From: a virus
IMG/VR virus record: IMGVR_UViG_3300047300_000894
Location: 1 to 61,976 of that record
DNA length: 61,976 nucleotides
Strand: one strand, 5' to 3'
Shown here piece by piece: positions 2,476 to 61,976 of this stretch; the first letter of the stretch is position 1, and each line of letters starts with the position of its first letter. The notes beneath the pieces were generated by a model. It worked only from the letters and a program-made list of their open reading frames with translations. It was not told the DNA's origin and made no database searches. The translations under genes and the position numbers were made by a program.

Positions 2476-2726
2476 TATTTTTTTGTGATTTCAAATTTAA
2501 CTGCTTGTGCTGATCCATCTTCAGCATCCTCAATTTCAACTAAAAGTTCTCCATCATATGTAAATCTGATGTCAAACACTCGATGACCTAAAGAGAATGG
2601 ATACCATACCACTCCGAAATCATATGGAGAGAATACAACTTCTGTTCTCTCCTCTTTGCCTTCAATCCTTGCTGATATTTTAGCAACCATAGTGAACGGA
2701 TTCACCGATACATTAATCTTTGTCAT
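2475..2726 (-). CDS. Small beta-rich protein of unknown function
   Basis: From the ATG at 2726 the protein has 83 residues (MTKINVSVNPF onward), alternating hydrophobic and charged residues as in a beta-sandwich. An ATG at 2759 would add 11 residues, but it lies deeper in the upstream gene and lacks the A-rich, AAGGAA-containing leader found before 2726. No family recognised. Confidence 0.55.
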   Translation of the reverse strand: MTKINVSVNPFTMVAKISARIEGKEERTEVVFSPYDFGVVWYPFSLGHRVFDIRFTYDGELLVEIEDAEDGSAQAVKFEITKK

Positions 2727-3129
2727 TTCCTTGAAATTTAATTTTTGAATTTGGTTCATCTACGATAAATCCAGTTATAAGATTTTGAATTAACATCTGT
2801 TCTGCTATTTGATGTGCTTGTTGTAATGGCATCTTGATTGAACGACAACCCTTCTGTACCATCTCTGTCATAACATTCACATCATTGTAGTATACATCTA
2901 CCCAATCGGCTAAATATCGATTACTTCTTGACAGATTAAACCAATAATCGAATCCCTTTTCCGACAAATCAAACACAAAAGATTGTGCCATAAAATGCTG
3001 AAATGATGTAGCCTTTGTTTCAAGAAATCTCTCTAATGAAAATCCTACATTTTGCTTATGGTACTCTGCTTCCCATAATGCTCGTTCCTCGTAAGTTAAG
3101 AGGTCATAAAAATCTTTTTTCGTACTCAT
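2713..3129 (-). CDS. Helical protein of unknown function, 138 residues
   Basis: It begins MSTKKDFYDLL and is rich in aromatic residues and predicted helices (YFDYWFNLSR-like pattern around residues 60-70). There are no membrane segments or cysteine clusters. The start is preceded by the AACCAAACA box (minus strand, 3143-3135), shared with many genes of this phage. A 90-base gap upstream contains the direct repeat GTAGACGAA twice and a GGGATCAG motif like those in the 6 kb repeat region, so this may be the start of a sub-operon. Confidence 0.6.
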   Translation of the reverse strand: MSTKKDFYDLLTYEERALWEAEYHKQNVGFSLERFLETKATSFQHFMAQSFVFDLSEKGFDYWFNLSRSNRYLADWVDVYYNDVNVMTEMVQKGCRSIKMPLQQAHQIAEQMLIQNLITGFIVDEPNSKIKFQGNDKD

Positions 3130-3219: not shown

Positions 3220-3867
3220 CTACAATACAGCTCCCCATTGTTCTGCCATAGCATCAGCTATGCCTTGAAATGTCTTGCTCCTTAATCCTCTCCGTTCTTC
3301 GGGAGACTTCGCTTTCTGCAATGCTTCGTAATACCACATCGCTTGCCTTTTAGGTTTCCCTGTTTTGCCATCTATCCATTCCTTGAACTCGCCTTTATCT
3401 ACCATATTTGTTGGCTCTAACTTCGGTAAGTTCTTTAACCACAAACAAGTAGACTTGCTCGCTGAATCGCCAAACCAATATGGCTGAACGATTTGGTCGG
3501 GTTTCCGTAGCTTGGATGAAATAACGCTTATGGGGTTCTCAATAGCTATTCGTGGAATGTCTGCCATCATCAGCTTGTAGACAAACAATAACGCTTGTCG
3601 CTGATTCTCATACCTCTCCTCGTTAGGACTCCCATCTTTATTGTACAGATGCCTTGCTCCACTTACGGACAGATATGTACAAGGGGGATGTGCAATCATT
3701 AAATCCCAACCTTTGTCGATAACTTCGAACACATCTTGTTGGTAATGCCATTCGGGATGCCCCCCACTACAAGGTAGGATGTCGCAACTAAATGCCTCAA
3801 ATCCCAATTTTCTAAATGCTAATGTTACAGCTTGACTCTCTTCGCAAGCAACTAATACTCTCTTCAT
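3220..3867 (-). CDS. Phage C5-cytosine DNA methyltransferase-like protein
   Basis: This 215-residue protein begins MKRVLVACEESQAV (the SAM-binding start of the family). It has the catalytic-loop motif HPPCTYLSVSGAR (Cys at about residue 62) and IENPIS (about residue 110), corresponding to motifs I, IV and VI of C5 methyltransferases. It is shorter than a typical Dcm (over 300 residues) and has no evident large target-recognition domain, as in a compact family common in phage genomes. It could protect phage DNA from host restriction. A second, different member lies at 53288. Target specificity cannot be read from the sequence. Confidence 0.75.
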   Translation of the reverse strand: MKRVLVACEESQAVTLAFRKLGFEAFSCDILPCSGGHPEWHYQQDVFEVIDKGWDLMIAHPPCTYLSVSGARHLYNKDGSPNEERYENQRQALLFVYKLMMADIPRIAIENPISVISSKLRKPDQIVQPYWFGDSASKSTCLWLKNLPKLEPTNMVDKGEFKEWIDGKTGKPKRQAMWYYEALQKAKSPEERRGLRSKTFQGIADAMAEQWGAVL

Positions 3868-6844: not shown

Positions 6845-6876
6845 AAAAAAAATCCCCCACATTTCTGTAGGGGATT
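6845..6876 (-). terminator. Intrinsic terminator of the amidoligase operon
   Basis: On the minus strand, AATCCCC-type arms (6851-6857 with 6870-6876, a 12-base loop) are followed by eight T residues. It lies 20 bases after the stop of the amidotransferase gene, so it closes the operon 9839-6897. Confidence 0.8.
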
Positions 6877-6896
6877 CTGTAATCAATGAGATGGTA

Positions 6897-7751
6897 TTAG
6901 ATGCAATACCATTTTAGATTCTCCATCTCTTCCCATTCGGAATCAGTCAATGATGCTACATCTTTAGACTTGAGATAGTCGTATCTCTCTTGCCATTCAT
7001 CATAGATAGCATCATCCTCATCTTGGCTATAGTATTCGTACCATTTCTTATCATTAGCCTTAAGGTCATCCTTAAATGGGATTGTAGGATTATTCTCTAC
7101 CTTCGGATAATGCACGATGGTTTGTATAGCTTGTTTGGTGTATGTCGGTTTGACATTGTTGTATACCTTCTTGCCACCATAATCAATATAGTTAACCTTC
7201 TTGTATGTAGCATTAGAAAACCAACATCCTTCGAATTCATCATCTCTTTGACCTAACTGCTCATTGACAATCGTGTATTCATTATAGGCATTCAAGAAGA
7301 TTAGCTTACTGCTACCAATGAACTTTTTGATAAGACCAATGATTGCATCATTGTAAAGGAAATCAGATGGTAGCTTACGAAGATAGATTTCATTGAACAA
7401 GTTCGTATCTGACTTCTTTGCATCAATCCCATTCAGTTCACCAATCACTCCATTGTGAACGAATGCAATATCCTTGTTAACTTGGAATGGATGGCAGTTC
7501 GTTTCGTTTACTCCACCACTTGTGCTGATACGGAAATGTAGTACGACATTGGATTTCGGGAAATCTCTTCTGACCTCAACATATTTGTTGTAGAATGCCT
7601 CAAAGGATTTGACCTCTTTGAAGATATGTAATTGATTGTTTGAAACATCTGTCCAAATCATCCCTCCACCATCTCTGTTGTTATCCCAACAATTTTTGAT
7701 AAGAGATTTTTCGAATGTAACATTTGGGGAATTTAAAATTGCGATACACAT
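6897..7751 (-). CDS. Class II glutamine amidotransferase (Ntn-hydrolase)
   Basis: This 284-residue protein begins MCIAIL, so removal of Met would expose Cys2 as the N-terminal nucleophile that releases ammonia from glutamine. Other family features are NRDGGGMIW (25-33), the glutamine-site HFRIS (72-76), FVHNG (97-101, oxyanion hole) and SDTNLF (114-119). The C-terminal third is not recognisable and may be partner-specific. No sugar-isomerase or synthase domain is fused, so it needs a separate acceptor enzyme. The gene just upstream, an amidoligase, is the obvious partner: the ammonia would feed its ligation reaction. It is terminated at 6845-6876. Confidence 0.85.
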   Translation of the reverse strand: MCIAILNSPNVTFEKSLIKNCWDNNRDGGGMIWTDVSNNQLHIFKEVKSFEAFYNKYVEVRRDFPKSNVVLHFRISTSGGVNETNCHPFQVNKDIAFVHNGVIGELNGIDAKKSDTNLFNEIYLRKLPSDFLYNDAIIGLIKKFIGSSKLIFLNAYNEYTIVNEQLGQRDDEFEGCWFSNATYKKVNYIDYGGKKVYNNVKPTYTKQAIQTIVHYPKVENNPTIPFKDDLKANDKKWYEYYSQDEDDAIYDEWQERYDYLKSKDVASLTDSEWEEMENLKWYCI

Positions 7752-7793
7752 AATATTAATTGTTTTGATTGTTTAAAAAATTGATTTGTTAAT

Positions 7794-7816
7794 GGGGAGA
7801 TTGCTCTCCCCTTTTT
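7794..7816 (+). terminator. GC-rich hairpin between the amidoligase and amidotransferase genes
   Basis: GGGGAGA-TTGC-TCTCCCC is a perfect 7-bp stem followed by TTTTT on the plus strand, although both flanking genes are on the minus strand. For plus-strand (antisense) transcripts it is a good terminator. In the minus-strand mRNA it is a stem without a U run, just after the amidoligase stop, where it might protect an upstream mRNA segment or partly lower downstream expression. Confidence 0.6.
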
Positions 7817-7819
7817 GGT

Positions 7820-9514
7820 TTATAATGAACGAATTGCTGAACGAAGATTTGTGAAATCATATGTTGCACAATCTCTGTCGAAATCAAGTGCCATATCGAT
7901 TGAATCTAACATTCTTCTCTTCAGTTTATCAAGAGTAAAAATCTTGAGCATATGCTTGTGTAAATCAGATGAAGAATCACATAACATATTCGCCACTTCG
8001 ATGAATGAATCTGTTGGATTGTTTGCCATAATTCGTAACAATCCGATTCGCCATTCCAATGTCTTGATATTCTCTACCAATGGAAAGATTCTGAATTCGA
8101 TTCTCTTGTCCATAATCTTAACTGCTTGGTATTTTGTGTTTACAGAACTCTTCATTCTGTACTTCTCTTTTGCCTCACAATATGTGATGTTAATTCTCTT
8201 CTTGTAGATGGCATAGAACAATGGCATATATCCACTAATCATCTCAAATGTATCTTGTCCACTTGTGTAACTTCTGCTGAAATGGATGTGACCACCACAA
8301 GCTTCCTTGAATCTGCCCAAGTTTGCCTTGTCCTCATTTGAGTCAATCAAGTTAGGGAATCTTGTCTCAATTGCTTTTGCCTCATTGATAAGGTCATCAG
8401 TAAACAATGGATAACAAGGTGATACCAATTCGTATCCGATTGTATCATCAAGACTGCCATCTCTTTCCTTCTTCCATCCGAATTCGTGATAGATTTCATT
8501 TGCTCCATTAACTGCTCCCAATCGTGATTGTTTTTCAATCTCTACACCAATCTTGAATACAACATTCATTGGCATATTGATTGTCTTCACTTGTTGCGAT
8601 GAATGATAACCGAAACGCTCATTTCTAAAGTTACGAGATGCACAATCTACCATATCGTGCGATGCATCTACATCTCTTCTGCAATGTGAACAAAAGACTT
8701 GTGTATATCCATTTGCCACAGCAGATTCTCTGTCGAAATATCTTTTGCCATTGTGCATTGTATTGCGAAATTCTCTGTTGATATTCACCAATTCTGCAGT
8801 TACTTGCAATGGTACAATTTCACCTTCATTGAATCTCCACAATCTTCTTGATTCCATATAGAAATTAACCAATACACCATCCAACATTGTATGAAATTCT
8901 GTCGCAGAATCGATGTGAATTAATCTGTCGCTGTAGGCATCCACTACCAATGAACGATGTGTATTCTGATAGTAAATTGGCAAAGAGAATGAACTAACTT
9001 GTGCCATTCTGATGTAGTCATTTGCATCAACATATGATGGCGAATTGTAGCTACCATTTCTGCTGTATACATATTTCCAATCAGATTCATTCGTACGAAC
9101 TAATCTCAAATCTCCCCACATATTTCTATCAGCTACCTTAAGGTCAATCCATCTGAATTCATCCATTGACCAAACAAATCCCGCATTAAATCGCTGAACT
9201 TCCGAACGGAATGTGTATGTCTTCCCATTGTATTCGATTTGAACTACGGGACTATTACTTGCAGTCAAGGATGCTTTTGAGATGTAATCCCCTCCACCAT
9301 TTGGTGAACGATGGATTCTCAATGCATCTGTCTTCAACACATATGTTGTTTCCCAATCCAAGCCATTCCAATTGGAACAAGCTACGATTTTCTTTTGCTC
9401 ATTTGAATCAGCGACATACACATAATTGTATCTGCTGAAGATTCTGCCATCCATCAATTGCGATGATTCATTTGCATTGATTACTTCCCCGAAGATTGTT
9501 GTTACTTGTGACAT
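7820..9514 (-). CDS. Glutamine-synthetase-fold amidoligase (Amidoligase_2-like)
   Basis: This 564-residue protein has the amidoligase pattern in its C-terminal half: GVEIE (323-327), RDGSL (351-355), ELVSP (362-366), CGGHIHFS (406-413) and RIEFRIFP (471-478). These correspond to the metal/ATP-binding acidic, His and Arg residues of the predicted peptide-ligase branch of the glutamine synthetase fold. Residues 275-291 (C-x2-C, H286, C291) may bind zinc. The first 270 residues look beta-rich and may select the substrate. It would join a carboxylate to an amine or ammonia using ATP. The downstream amidotransferase is a likely ammonia donor. The substrate is unknown: a host or phage protein, or cell-wall material. 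The motif order makes the family assignment strong. Confidence 0.8.
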   Translation of the reverse strand: MSQVTTIFGEVINANESSQLMDGRIFSRYNYVYVADSNEQKKIVACSNWNGLDWETTYVLKTDALRIHRSPNGGGDYISKASLTASNSPVVQIEYNGKTYTFRSEVQRFNAGFVWSMDEFRWIDLKVADRNMWGDLRLVRTNESDWKYVYSRNGSYNSPSYVDANDYIRMAQVSSFSLPIYYQNTHRSLVVDAYSDRLIHIDSATEFHTMLDGVLVNFYMESRRLWRFNEGEIVPLQVTAELVNINREFRNTMHNGKRYFDRESAVANGYTQVFCSHCRRDVDASHDMVDCASRNFRNERFGYHSSQQVKTINMPMNVVFKIGVEIEKQSRLGAVNGANEIYHEFGWKKERDGSLDDTIGYELVSPCYPLFTDDLINEAKAIETRFPNLIDSNEDKANLGRFKEACGGHIHFSRSYTSGQDTFEMISGYMPLFYAIYKKRINITYCEAKEKYRMKSSVNTKYQAVKIMDKRIEFRIFPLVENIKTLEWRIGLLRIMANNPTDSFIEVANMLCDSSSDLHKHMLKIFTLDKLKRRMLDSIDMALDFDRDCATYDFTNLRSAIRSL

Positions 9515-9554
9515 AGTTTTAAAATTTTGATTGTTTATGGATTAGTTTAGCTTA

Positions 9555-9839
9555 TCAGTTTTGAGATGCATTATCGATGAAATAATCGAATTCGAATTCT
9601 TCTCTCCATTCGTGAATGGTTTGTTCATCCTTGAATTCTTGCCCATTGTATGTGGCAGTCATTGGTACATCTTCTGCCTTGTCGGATGACAACATCAACA
9701 AGGTGATTCCGTTCATTGTAACCCATCCAATTACACAGATGATTGCTTCAGCGAATGCATTGTGATAGATGCTGAAGAATGACATTGGTAGAAAGATTTG
9801 AGATGCTACCAAGATTGCGATTGTTTCTAACTTTTTCAT
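9555..9839 (-). CDS. Two-helix membrane protein, first gene of the amidoligase operon
   Basis: I start it at the ATG at 9839 (MKKLETIAILVASQIF) because the operon promoter (9957-9986) lies inside any longer frame. The 94-residue protein has two membrane segments (about 5-25 and 32-50) and an acidic cytoplasmic or periplasmic tail (EWREEFEFDYFIDN). Its place as leader of a three-gene operon with amidoligase and amidotransferase suggests it localises the system to the membrane or acts on the envelope; this is inference. No family recognised. Confidence 0.65.
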   Translation of the reverse strand: MKKLETIAILVASQIFLPMSFFSIYHNAFAEAIICVIGWVTMNGITLLMLSSDKAEDVPMTATYNGQEFKDEQTIHEWREEFEFDYFIDNASQN

Positions 9840-9956
9840 TTTGTTTGAATTTAAATTGTTTATGATTTGATTGATTTTGCCATTCGGGATGCTACACTGG
9901 AAATTGTCATTTGGTGAATCTGTTGACCTTGCAGTTTTGCCATCTCTTACGACATT

Positions 9957-9986
9957 CAAATATAACACAAATGATTTAATTTACAA
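9957..9986 (-). promoter_or_regulatory. Strong Bacteroidota-type promoter for the amidoligase operon
   Basis: On the minus strand, TTG (9986-9984), a spacer of exactly 19 bases and TATATTTG (9964-9957) match the consensus fully. Transcription should begin near 9950, about 110 bases before the ATG at 9839. The leader carries a TAAATTCAAACAAAATG-type A-rich start region. Confidence 0.75.
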
Positions 9987-10561: not shown

Positions 10562-11209
10562 ATGCTATCATACGAGCTTACTCAAGCATCGCCCAACTCT
10601 TTGATTGTAGAGATTGGTGCACAGTACGATGACACAGTTCAATATGGGTCATTGCAAATATTTATAGACCCTTTATTTAAACCCACACACAACGCAAGGA
10701 TATATGGAATTGTTAAAGCAGTACCTAAAGGAAAGTGCTATAATGAGGATGGTTTTGAAATTGAAACAGATGTACGGGTGGGTGACAAAGTATACTTCCA
10801 CTACCTTGCTACATTCGATGAGAATGCTTGTGTATATGGTAACTATTATCGCATTCCTTACTGCTGGATTTTTTGCGTTGTCAGGGACTCTGATATTATA
10901 CCTATTGGTGGGTGGACGTTCTGCGAGAAGATTGTTGAAAATGAAGATGAATTTGAGGAGGTAGAGGTTGATGGAATAAAGATTTCAGCGGTCAAAAATT
11001 CTTTTGGTCTCATTACATCTGTCGCAAAAAAAGACTCGATTAAGAAGGCAAGATTAGCACATATTGGGAAACCATTAAAAAATGTTGATGCACTTGATGT
11101 GAAAGCAGGTGAAATTGTTGTAATAGATAAGAATACAAACTTTGAAAATGTGATTGAAGGAAAAACCTACTATACGATACGCCAAGGTGATATTTTATGT
11201 AAAAACTAA
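10562..11209 (+). CDS. GroES-like beta-barrel protein (possible co-chaperonin)
   Basis: This 215-residue protein contains VRVGDKVYFHY and IYGIVKAVPKG in the first half, and ends with KAGEIVVIDKN...GKTYYTIRQGDILCKN, which follows the GroES pattern (gate-keeping barrel with a final xxxxDIL). Two barrel-like halves are possible. Phage GroES analogues such as T4 gp31 adapt the host chaperonin to fold capsid proteins. A position just before packaging and capsid genes fits that role. The match is by pattern only; the mobile loop is not obvious. It is preceded by the AACCAAACA leader. Confidence 0.45.
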   Translation: MLSYELTQASPNSLIVEIGAQYDDTVQYGSLQIFIDPLFKPTHNARIYGIVKAVPKGKCYNEDGFEIETDVRVGDKVYFHYLATFDENACVYGNYYRIPYCWIFCVVRDSDIIPIGGWTFCEKIVENEDEFEEVEVDGIKISAVKNSFGLITSVAKKDSIKKARLAHIGKPLKNVDALDVKAGEIVVIDKNTNFENVIEGKTYYTIRQGDILCKN

Positions 11210-53287: not shown

Positions 53288-53914
53288 TTAACCTTTGTTC
53301 TTACAGAAATTCATTACCTCCAAGCAGAACTCGTGAGGAATTTTACTCCTATTGTAAGCCCCCTTTAATCCTTGTGTCCCTGTCTGCGAACCTCGTGGTG
53401 CAGAAACGTGGCAAGGGTCTCCGTTTTTGCAATGAGGCTTTGGAGAATATGCTTCGGCATTACTCCAAATATCCGTAGGCTTCATCCTTGTATCTCCATA
53501 TTGGCAGTAAGTAACTGTATCTCGTTTAAGATGCTCAAGCTGTGGCATCTTCCTCATTAATCCTCGTGGATTCTCAATAAAGAAAAACTTTGGATTAATC
53601 TGCTCAATTAAATTTAGCGTTGCATCAAGCAATTCCAAGCCAAGTCTCGCTGTATCAGTATATGGAACATAATTTCCTTTTGTACTACCTTTCCAATGTC
53701 TACCTATAGATGCTACAGAAAATGCTGTACAAGGCGGAGAAGCCCACACTACATCGGGTTGAAATGGTAGCTTCGATAAGTCAAACTCTCTGATATCGCA
53801 AGCATAATCTATCCCATCAAATGGCAGTAGGTCAGATGAAAATACCTCCATTCCCAACTCTTCTGCTGCCTTACCGATTGAGCGGGAACCAGCAAATAAT
53901 TCTAATACCTTCAT
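53288..53914 (-). CDS. C5-cytosine DNA methyltransferase (Dcm-like), second copy
   Basis: This 208-residue protein begins MKVLELFAGSRSIGKAAEEL (motif I, FAG), has ASPPCTAFSVAS (motif IV, catalytic Cys about 62) and FFIENPRGLMRK (motif VI). It is compact, with a Cys/His-containing end (HCKNGDPCH). It differs clearly from the enzyme at 3220, so the two were probably acquired separately. It overlaps the upstream nuclease-like gene by 4 bases, which suggests a functional pair, e.g. self-protection against that nuclease or the host. Confidence 0.8.
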   Translation of the reverse strand: MKVLELFAGSRSIGKAAEELGMEVFSSDLLPFDGIDYACDIREFDLSKLPFQPDVVWASPPCTAFSVASIGRHWKGSTKGNYVPYTDTARLGLELLDATLNLIEQINPKFFFIENPRGLMRKMPQLEHLKRDTVTYCQYGDTRMKPTDIWSNAEAYSPKPHCKNGDPCHVSAPRGSQTGTQGLKGAYNRSKIPHEFCLEVMNFCKNKG

Positions 53915-56973: not shown

Positions 56974-57005
56974 CAAATGTAACACAAAGGATTTATAATA
57001 CAAAA
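56974..57005 (-). promoter_or_regulatory. Strong Bacteroidota-type promoter for the SSB/RusA/methyltransferase operon
   Basis: On the minus strand, TTTTG (57005-57001), exactly 19 bases and TACATTTG (56981-56974) match the consensus fully. The mRNA start near 56967 gives a very short leader. It follows directly after the terminator at 57026-57058, a clean operon border. Confidence 0.8.
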
Positions 57006-60552: not shown

Positions 60553-61962
60553 TTAAAAAGGTGACTCTTGAACATTATCAAATACATTCTTCATTGTATT
60601 CAACACAGAATCTTTGTACAGCACTTCTGGTTTTGTGAATCTAAACAACTCTTCTTCAGTATCAGCAACTCTGTTTGTCTTCACATCAACAAATCTGTTT
60701 ACATCTCCAACTTCGCCATCCCGATTCTTAAGGATAACATACTTTAATGTATTGTCCATTGGAGCGACTGCTTGACCATTCGCCTTCGCATCAACATACT
60801 TGTAGTAATCATCACGATACAGCCCAATTACGACAATAGCATCTTGTTCGATGTTACCCGATGACCTTAAGTCAGCAAGCATAGGTGTCTTGTTAGGTCG
60901 CGACTCTACATTTCTTGACAACTGCGATAGGCAGATAATAGGTATTCTCAACTTCCTCGACAACTTCTGTATCTTGTTACTAACCGATGAAACTTGAGAG
61001 AAATCATCTTGCCCCTTGATTTGATTGTCACGAATCAACTGAAGATAGTCAATGACTACCATATCAATCTTGTTCTTGCGAACTTCGGCAGTCATCATCA
61101 TCGATAAGTAGTTAATATCTCTGTTGTCGGAATCGTAGAAATAGATAGGCAAACTTCTTAACTCTTTCGCTTGCGACTGCTTAATTTTCTTGACATCTTC
61201 GGGAGAAATTCTATTTGCTTTGAGATCAGAATAATTGTATTCGGTAATTTCGGAAGAAATATACCTGTACAACAAGGAATTTTTAGGCATCTCTAAACTT
61301 AAAAATAAAACCTTTTTCCCTGACTTTGCACACGCTTTTGTATGCTCCAATCCAACGATTGTTTTTCCCATAGATGGTCGAGCGGCTATAATAGTCATCC
61401 CCTCTTGCCAACCACCCAATGTGTAGTTAAGTTTGCGACTACCCGTATCAATTCCACTAAAAGACTTCTGTGTCCCCGCAGACTCCTCCATCTTATTTAT
61501 TACTTCATCGTATACATTCTCAATAGAGTAAACCTCTTGAGAGGATGTAGAGTCTTGCAACATCATCAAGCCTTGTTCAACTATAGATGTTAGCGTAGAC
61601 AAGTCATCTTCATTGTCCAAGCCCAACTGAATCTTGTTAGCCATATTGGACATATGTCGCTTGTTCTCCAACTCCTTTAGTTCAAATGCAACTTGCATAT
61701 GGTCAATTGCTCTCGTAGGTAACAACGACAACACAGGCGAAGCATTAATTCCTAAATCGGATTCCTTTGATTTAAGGCTACGAAATACATCGTAACGATT
61801 AAAGACACCATTAGTAGATGAAAGCTCGTTCATCGCCAAGAATGATGCCTTGTGTAAGTCATCTACGAACGACTCTTGGCTAACAACCTTGCTAACTTCT
61901 TTAAATGTGTGAGAATTTTCAAGAAGATATGCTATGATATCCTTCTCTAATAATGTGTCCAC
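60553..61962 (-). CDS. dnaB: Replicative DNA helicase (DnaB-like)
   Basis: This 469-residue protein has an N-terminal helical domain (1-100), a linker and a RecA-like C-terminal domain. Motifs are ARPSMGKT (Walker A, about 192-199), FLSLEMP (H1a), MVVIDYLQLI (Walker B/H2, about 297-306), PIICLSQLSRNVE (H3) and DLRSSGNIEQDA (H4 with the arginine finger nearby). It unwinds the replication fork. The start is GTG (61962), 17 bases after the initiator gene's stop across the contig junction; no ATG is available. DnaB plus an initiator, without a DNA polymerase or primase in the genome, implies use of the host replisome. Confidence 0.93.
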   Translation of the reverse strand: MDTLLEKDIIAYLLENSHTFKEVSKVVSQESFVDDLHKASFLAMNELSSTNGVFNRYDVFRSLKSKESDLGINASPVLSLLPTRAIDHMQVAFELKELENKRHMSNMANKIQLGLDNEDDLSTLTSIVEQGLMMLQDSTSSQEVYSIENVYDEVINKMEESAGTQKSFSGIDTGSRKLNYTLGGWQEGMTIIAARPSMGKTIVGLEHTKACAKSGKKVLFLSLEMPKNSLLYRYISSEITEYNYSDLKANRISPEDVKKIKQSQAKELRSLPIYFYDSDNRDINYLSMMMTAEVRKNKIDMVVIDYLQLIRDNQIKGQDDFSQVSSVSNKIQKLSRKLRIPIICLSQLSRNVESRPNKTPMLADLRSSGNIEQDAIVVIGLYRDDYYKYVDAKANGQAVAPMDNTLKYVILKNRDGEVGDVNRFVDVKTNRVADTEEELFRFTKPEVLYKDSVLNTMKNVFDNVQESPF

Positions 61963-61976
61963 TAATGTGGGAAATT
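61850..61976. repeat. Terminal direct repeat (right copy), circularisation overlap
   Basis: Identical to 1-127; see the left copy. Joining the ends restores the intact intergenic sequence between the initiator gene (ends at 131) and the start of dnaB, which supports a genuine circle of 61,849 bases. Confidence 0.95.

Follow-up and report, generated by a model that had tools for sequence, protein, structure and literature searches.

The best explanation of the operon described here, to which we assign a probability of about 0.5 as a whole, is that its two enzymes, an amidoligase and a class II glutamine amidotransferase (GAT), form a two-subunit glutamine-dependent amide synthetase, carried by a Bacteroidota phage as accessory early cargo with a benefit in conflict. 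On a rough split of this estimate, the amide-synthetase chemistry is likely, and the conflict role is tentative, falling somewhat short of even odds. The pair and its chemistry have already been published; what is new here is the genomic context and the loss of the argument for a membrane site of action, not the enzymes.

The window, i.e., the whole analyzed stretch of 61,976 bases (IMGVR_UViG_3300047300_000894), carries an exact 127-bp terminal direct repeat (positions 1–127 and 61850–61976), which points to a genome that is either complete or circularly permuted, and the nearest relatives of its terminase among named records are those of Flavobacterium and Cellulophaga phages (about 31%). 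As claimed in the preliminary description, the operon comprises three minus-strand genes with their own promoter and terminator, namely, a promoter of the Bacteroidota type exactly matching TTG-N19-TATATTTG (9957–9986), genes for a 94-aa protein with two predicted transmembrane (TM) helices (9555–9839), the 564-aa amidoligase (7820–9514) and the 284-aa GAT (6897–7751), and an intrinsic terminator formed by a hairpin and a U run (6845–6878).

The motif TTG-N19-TAnnTTTG occurs five times in the window versus 1.71 expected, and thus a lone match is weak evidence for a promoter; the match at 9957–9986 is kept in L002, the nearest relative, and sister phages show an excess of the motif at the same site (eight out of 29, versus 0.73 in mononucleotide shuffles, with a maximum of three). 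An extended promoter-like sequence, TTTGTGTTAnATTTG, has a second copy at 56974–57003, upstream of other minus-strand genes. The terminator hairpin, absent from the list produced by an automatic terminator scan, folds at −19.3 kcal/mol (z −4.5) and is conserved in L002. One more hairpin, which the preliminary description lacked, lies between the amidoligase and GAT genes (7794–7811, minus strand; −13.9 kcal/mol, z −5.5); it is found in L002 with a changed loop and possibly is an mRNA processing or attenuation signal.

The amidoligase consists of a variable N-terminal part, a short Cys-rich, putative zinc segment (Cys275, Cys278, Cys291), and a catalytic domain at about 310–564. The Cys-rich segment precedes the catalytic domain in most relatives, in differing forms, and has been lost in others. 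The catalytic domain contains the motifs G323-V-E325-I-E327, R351-D352-G-S354-L, E362-L-V-S-P, G-G-H409-I-H411-F-S, and R-I-E473-F-R475-I-F, and thereby the GxExE, DxS, GxE, GxH, R, ExR set conserved in Amidoligase_2 and other ligases of the glutamine synthetase (GS) fold. In 49 aligned sequences, 12 residues besides Met1 are invariant (Gly323, Glu325, Glu327, Asp352, Ser354, Gly360, Glu362, Gly407, His409, Arg440, Glu473, and Arg475). All motifs noted earlier for both enzymes are present, and, since the catalytic residues are invariant across relatives (the 49 amidoligase sequences and 37 GATs), they are not due to chance.

A profile match, by which the amidoligase assignment was to be checked, is lacking for the window protein itself: the Pfam scan of all 564 residues gave nothing above noise, Amidoligase_2 (PF12224) included, and the catalytic domain alone matches this family at E = 0.025 (14.9 bits, below the cut-off of 22). 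However, among the 49 aligned relatives, 29 have an Amidoligase_2 match at E ≤ 0.01, and L009 scores above the cut-off (30.0 bits). The search of PDB profiles with the amidoligase alignment yielded weak zinc-finger matches only.

The AlphaFold model of the catalytic domain alone is confident (pLDDT 92, pTM 0.90), and in the full-length model the N-terminal part is too uncertain for assignment. Foldseek matches this domain model to 8s59 (1.8e-5), to a best viral structure at 1.4e-10, and to the first named phage amidoligase at 3.5e-7. The matches in PDB are glutamine synthetase, gamma-glutamylmethylamide synthetase (GmaS), YbdK, and glutamate–cysteine ligase, with Dop and PafA lower; those in BFVD are phage amidoligases, including the ones of CW02, tf, and phi14:2, and most named viral matches are proteins called amidoligases. 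The TM-scores with solved GS structures are modest, about 0.4, and hence the domain represents a diverged GS fold. Taken together, the relatives, the alignments, and the fold outweigh the missing profile match and support the amidoligase identity: the C-terminal half of the protein is predicted, from sequence and model, to have the GS-like fold that had been called for and to belong among phage amidoligases.

The assignment of the second enzyme is backed by the profile check, as it matches Pfam GATase_4 with 29.8 bits (the curated cut-off is 23), and its family profile matches the GlmS glutaminase in PDB (4.2e-7). It contains Cys2 and the motifs HFR (His72–Arg74), HNG (His99–Gly101), and SDTN (Ser114–Asn117), and Cys2, Asn25, His72, Phe73, Arg74, His87, Pro88, His99, Asn100, Gly101, Asp115, and Thr116 are invariant in 37 GATs. 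Judging from its sequence, the 284-aa protein is a class II glutamine amidotransferase with a predicted N-terminal Cys nucleophile and the accompanying Arg, His–Asn–Gly, and Asp.

The two genes are almost obligately paired. We retrieved 80 IMG/VR loci with the GAT, 77 of which have upstream sequence and therefore are informative; in 73 out of 77, the amidoligase gene lies directly upstream of the GAT gene on the same strand, and in 39 of these 73 the genes overlap by one or 10 bases. In two loci (L090 and L091) a divergent amidoligase, missed by the profile, was recognized by motif inspection, and in two others (L067 and L094) there is no amidoligase within the sequence available. The protein distances of the amidoligase and the GAT co-vary (Mantel r 0.885, none out of 5000 permutations, n = 37), and the main clades are alike in both trees. 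Thus, the association of the genes in related phages, on which the preliminary description depended, is borne out, and the family matches, the GS fold, and the co-occurrence jointly support both the enzyme identities and the functional pairing. In bacteria the pair is rare, the GAT occurring in three out of 396 genomes drawn by phylum and two out of 197 drawn by class, with the seed genomes included.

The position of the pair in the phage genome was compared in 31 IMG/VR phages with related terminases (73–96% identity), considering the region upstream of the gene for a GroES-like co-chaperonin; this gene (10562–11209 in the window) adjoins the terminase genes and is conserved in sister phages. 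The survey of neighboring genes shows that the sister phages swap the contents of this slot, which holds the pair in seven phages (one seen through L018, a contig identical to L127), ArdC in 10, GP88 in five, and DUF932 in four, the remaining slots having other genes or not being covered; the cargo was assigned by Pfam on representatives, and by similarity or sequence pattern in the others. The pair therefore is accessory early cargo in a swappable slot, a context newly described here. Known mainly from conjugative elements, ArdC acts against restriction (PMC5512222).

The swapping also removes the basis for placing the enzymes at the membrane. The leading two-TM gene, with helices predicted at residues 6–24 and 32–50, had been taken to point to the membrane as the site of action; we set its start at the ATG at 9839, as an 80% relative aligns from MKK, although the listed ORF extends to a GTG at 9968. 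Genes of 50–94 aa hold the same position in L002 and L016–L019. By hydropathy, a two-TM gene lies at most 900 bases upstream of the cargo in five out of five phages with the pair, and likewise in seven out of 10 with ArdC, four out of five with GP88, and three out of four with DUF932. Since such genes precede unrelated cargos, the two-TM gene appears to be a feature of the slot rather than of the amidoligase, and we reject the membrane argument.

The four closest bacterial homologs all reside in mobile or defence-rich DNA. One adjoins QatBCD (L099); another, short pAgo, a TIR protein, and a type IIG enzyme (L100/L121); the third has a type IIG enzyme and a resolvase-like gene nearby (L101); and the last, from Chitinophaga eiseniae (L102), probably sits in a conjugative element, given the tra-like genes. 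The defence-flanked L099 and L100, both from Ignavibacteriae, have a 6.2-kb block in common up to a point near the GAT, past which their defence systems differ, and because of this block we count them as one event, not as independent ones. In the Ignavibacteriae MAGs L120 and L121, otherwise related islands differ in cargo, Qat versus short pAgo and the type IIG enzyme; their flanks consist of an AAA ATPase and a recombinase/HerA-like block, the latter including the amidoligase–GAT pair as well. Defence genes tend to cluster with mobile DNA in any case, and PADLOC models match neither the amidoligase nor the GAT; the chromosomal neighborhoods are no more than suggestive of a conflict role. Together with the slot alternatives, they lend indirect support to the earlier idea of an anti-defence or takeover system.

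We infer from these data complex formation, ammonia transfer, the acceptor, and the biological role of the pair as follows. The GAT would hydrolyze glutamine via Cys2 and supply ammonia, and the amidoligase would use ATP to convert a carboxylate via an acyl phosphate into an amide, as glutamine synthetase does; in its logic, such a two-subunit synthetase would parallel other amidotransferases. The acceptor would probably be selected by the N-terminal region and the Cys-rich segment, and most likely would be a peptide-like host molecule, either a cell-wall peptide or a protein; we favor such an acceptor in view of the published cassette hypothesis, and also since these two regions would be well suited to recognizing a large one. 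The benefit most likely would be in conflict, the infected cell being altered in a way that defeats competing phages or host defences, which we favor because of the slot and the chromosomal contexts. A pure anti-restriction role would agree with the slot in phages and disagree with the defence neighborhoods in chromosomes, whereas exclusion of other phages would suit both.

One specific form of this best explanation is that the pair is a minimal peptidoglycan-modification cassette, amidating or branching stem peptides and thus stopping adsorption or injection by competing phages. Phage amidoligase–GAT pairs have been discussed since about 2009; for amidoligases with ATP-grasp, GGCT, and GAT, the names “peptidoglycan modification” cassette and module are in use (PMC5498523, PMC11945000, PMC6256558), the same enzymes are listed for a LUZ24-like phage (PMC3890496), and the report of the pair in the OM43 phages MEP401 and MEP402 refers to a proposed cell-wall modification blocking superinfection (PMC10580990). 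This role has thus been hypothesized for phages carrying amidoligase, GAT, ATP-grasp, and GGCT (PMC5498523, PMC11945000, PMC10580990). The excerpts of PMC10580990, PMC5498523, PMC11945000, PMC6256558, and PMC3890496 report neither a substrate nor a substrate test, and we found no experiment on any amidoligase–GAT pair.

The cassette phages phiEco32, phiRIO-1, PSA-HP1, and the LUZ24-like phages resemble the window in having an amidoligase and a class II GAT, and the fold matches with the amidoligases of CW02 and tf add to this likeness. Moreover, 20 out of the 80 retrieved IMG/VR loci have an ATP-grasp gene, typically just after the GAT. However, the cassette phages carry ATP-grasp, GGCT, and a second ligase, whereas in the window the homolog search detected no ATP-grasp, and the Pfam scan no GGCT, ATP-grasp, or COOH–NH2 ligase, so that a full cassette is rejected for this phage; nor does the two-TM gene provide a link to the envelope. 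We regard the cell-wall form as possible, albeit doubtful.

Among the published pairs, gp06–gp07 of MEP401/MEP402 are similar to that of the window in the length of the amidoligase, its N-terminal extension, its position directly before the GAT-II gene, and the lack of an annotated ATP-grasp in the shown neighborhood, and differ in that the genes overlap by 10 bases and no two-TM leader is noted; the identity is about 21% for the full-length amidoligase and 32–36% for the GAT. In mycobacteriophage Marvin, an amidoligase (gp105) also precedes a GAT-II (gp106), with about 19–23% identity to the window proteins. Marvin gp105 (L012, 2560–3921) is labeled “glutamine amidotransferase domain protein,” likely a mis-annotation, as the motifs of the amidoligase are present in it and Amidoligase_2 matches it weakly.

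The best explanation could also take a second specific form, which we consider rather unlikely: amidation by the pair of a protein of the host or phage, at a side chain or the C-terminus, which might, e.g., disarm a defence protein. The fold matches include two GS-fold enzymes, the protein ligase PafA and the depupylase Dop, the putative zinc segment is widespread in the amidoligase family, and the same slot is used by ArdC antirestriction genes; but PafA and Dop match less well than small-molecule ligases, no acceptor candidate was identified, and an anti-defence role hardly explains retention beside chromosomal defence genes. The pair might be an unrecognized anti-phage module, amidating an envelope or protein target and shared by phages, for superinfection exclusion, and bacterial defence islands, a proposal that we hold to be unlikely.

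The small-molecule ligases GmaS and YbdK among the top fold matches would also agree with a metabolic pair that makes small-molecule or gamma-glutamyl amides for nitrogen economy or a secondary metabolite, the GAT acting as a hydrolase or ammonia source. Glutamine synthetase, GmaS, YbdK, and Dop/PafA have the GS fold and the catalytic Glu/His/Arg set in common with the window amidoligase, yet stand alone or act with Pup, whereas the latter would be supplied with ammonia by a separate GAT. A role in conflict agrees better than housekeeping metabolism with the sporadic distribution, the exchange for ArdC, GP88, or DUF932 in the slot, and the long N-terminal region, which is variable, making a metabolic pair improbable.

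Some deazaguanine pathways involve class II GATs, and the enzymes of the pair could in principle add an amide to a modified DNA base, but such hypermodification is very improbable and was rejected, as the Pfam scan of 55 window proteins revealed no deazaguanine, hydroxymethyl-pyrimidine, or related family, but just a C5-methylase-like protein. A C5-cytosine methylase-like protein, recognized by Pfam, is encoded at 53288–53914, and a similar-looking 215-aa protein at 3220–3867 is without a Pfam match.

For the amide synthetase with a conflict benefit, the sister phages bearing the pair or ArdC, GP88, or DUF932, together with the chromosomal copies beside defence genes, form a natural comparison set, and a two-gene system makes the vague cell-wall hypothesis directly testable, both by mass spectrometry of proteins and muropeptides and in terms of superinfection and escape from restriction. 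Small early proteins with the motif FxWxxSxxGxx[FY]W, which recur around the pair loci (e.g., 2713–3129 of the window, minus strand), were considered as a peptide substrate; this idea was not adopted, as they are spread across the early region of these phages, and only in L097/L151 (L097, 3624–5729) and L129 (3992–6007) does the amidoligase N-terminus carry the motif region as a fusion.
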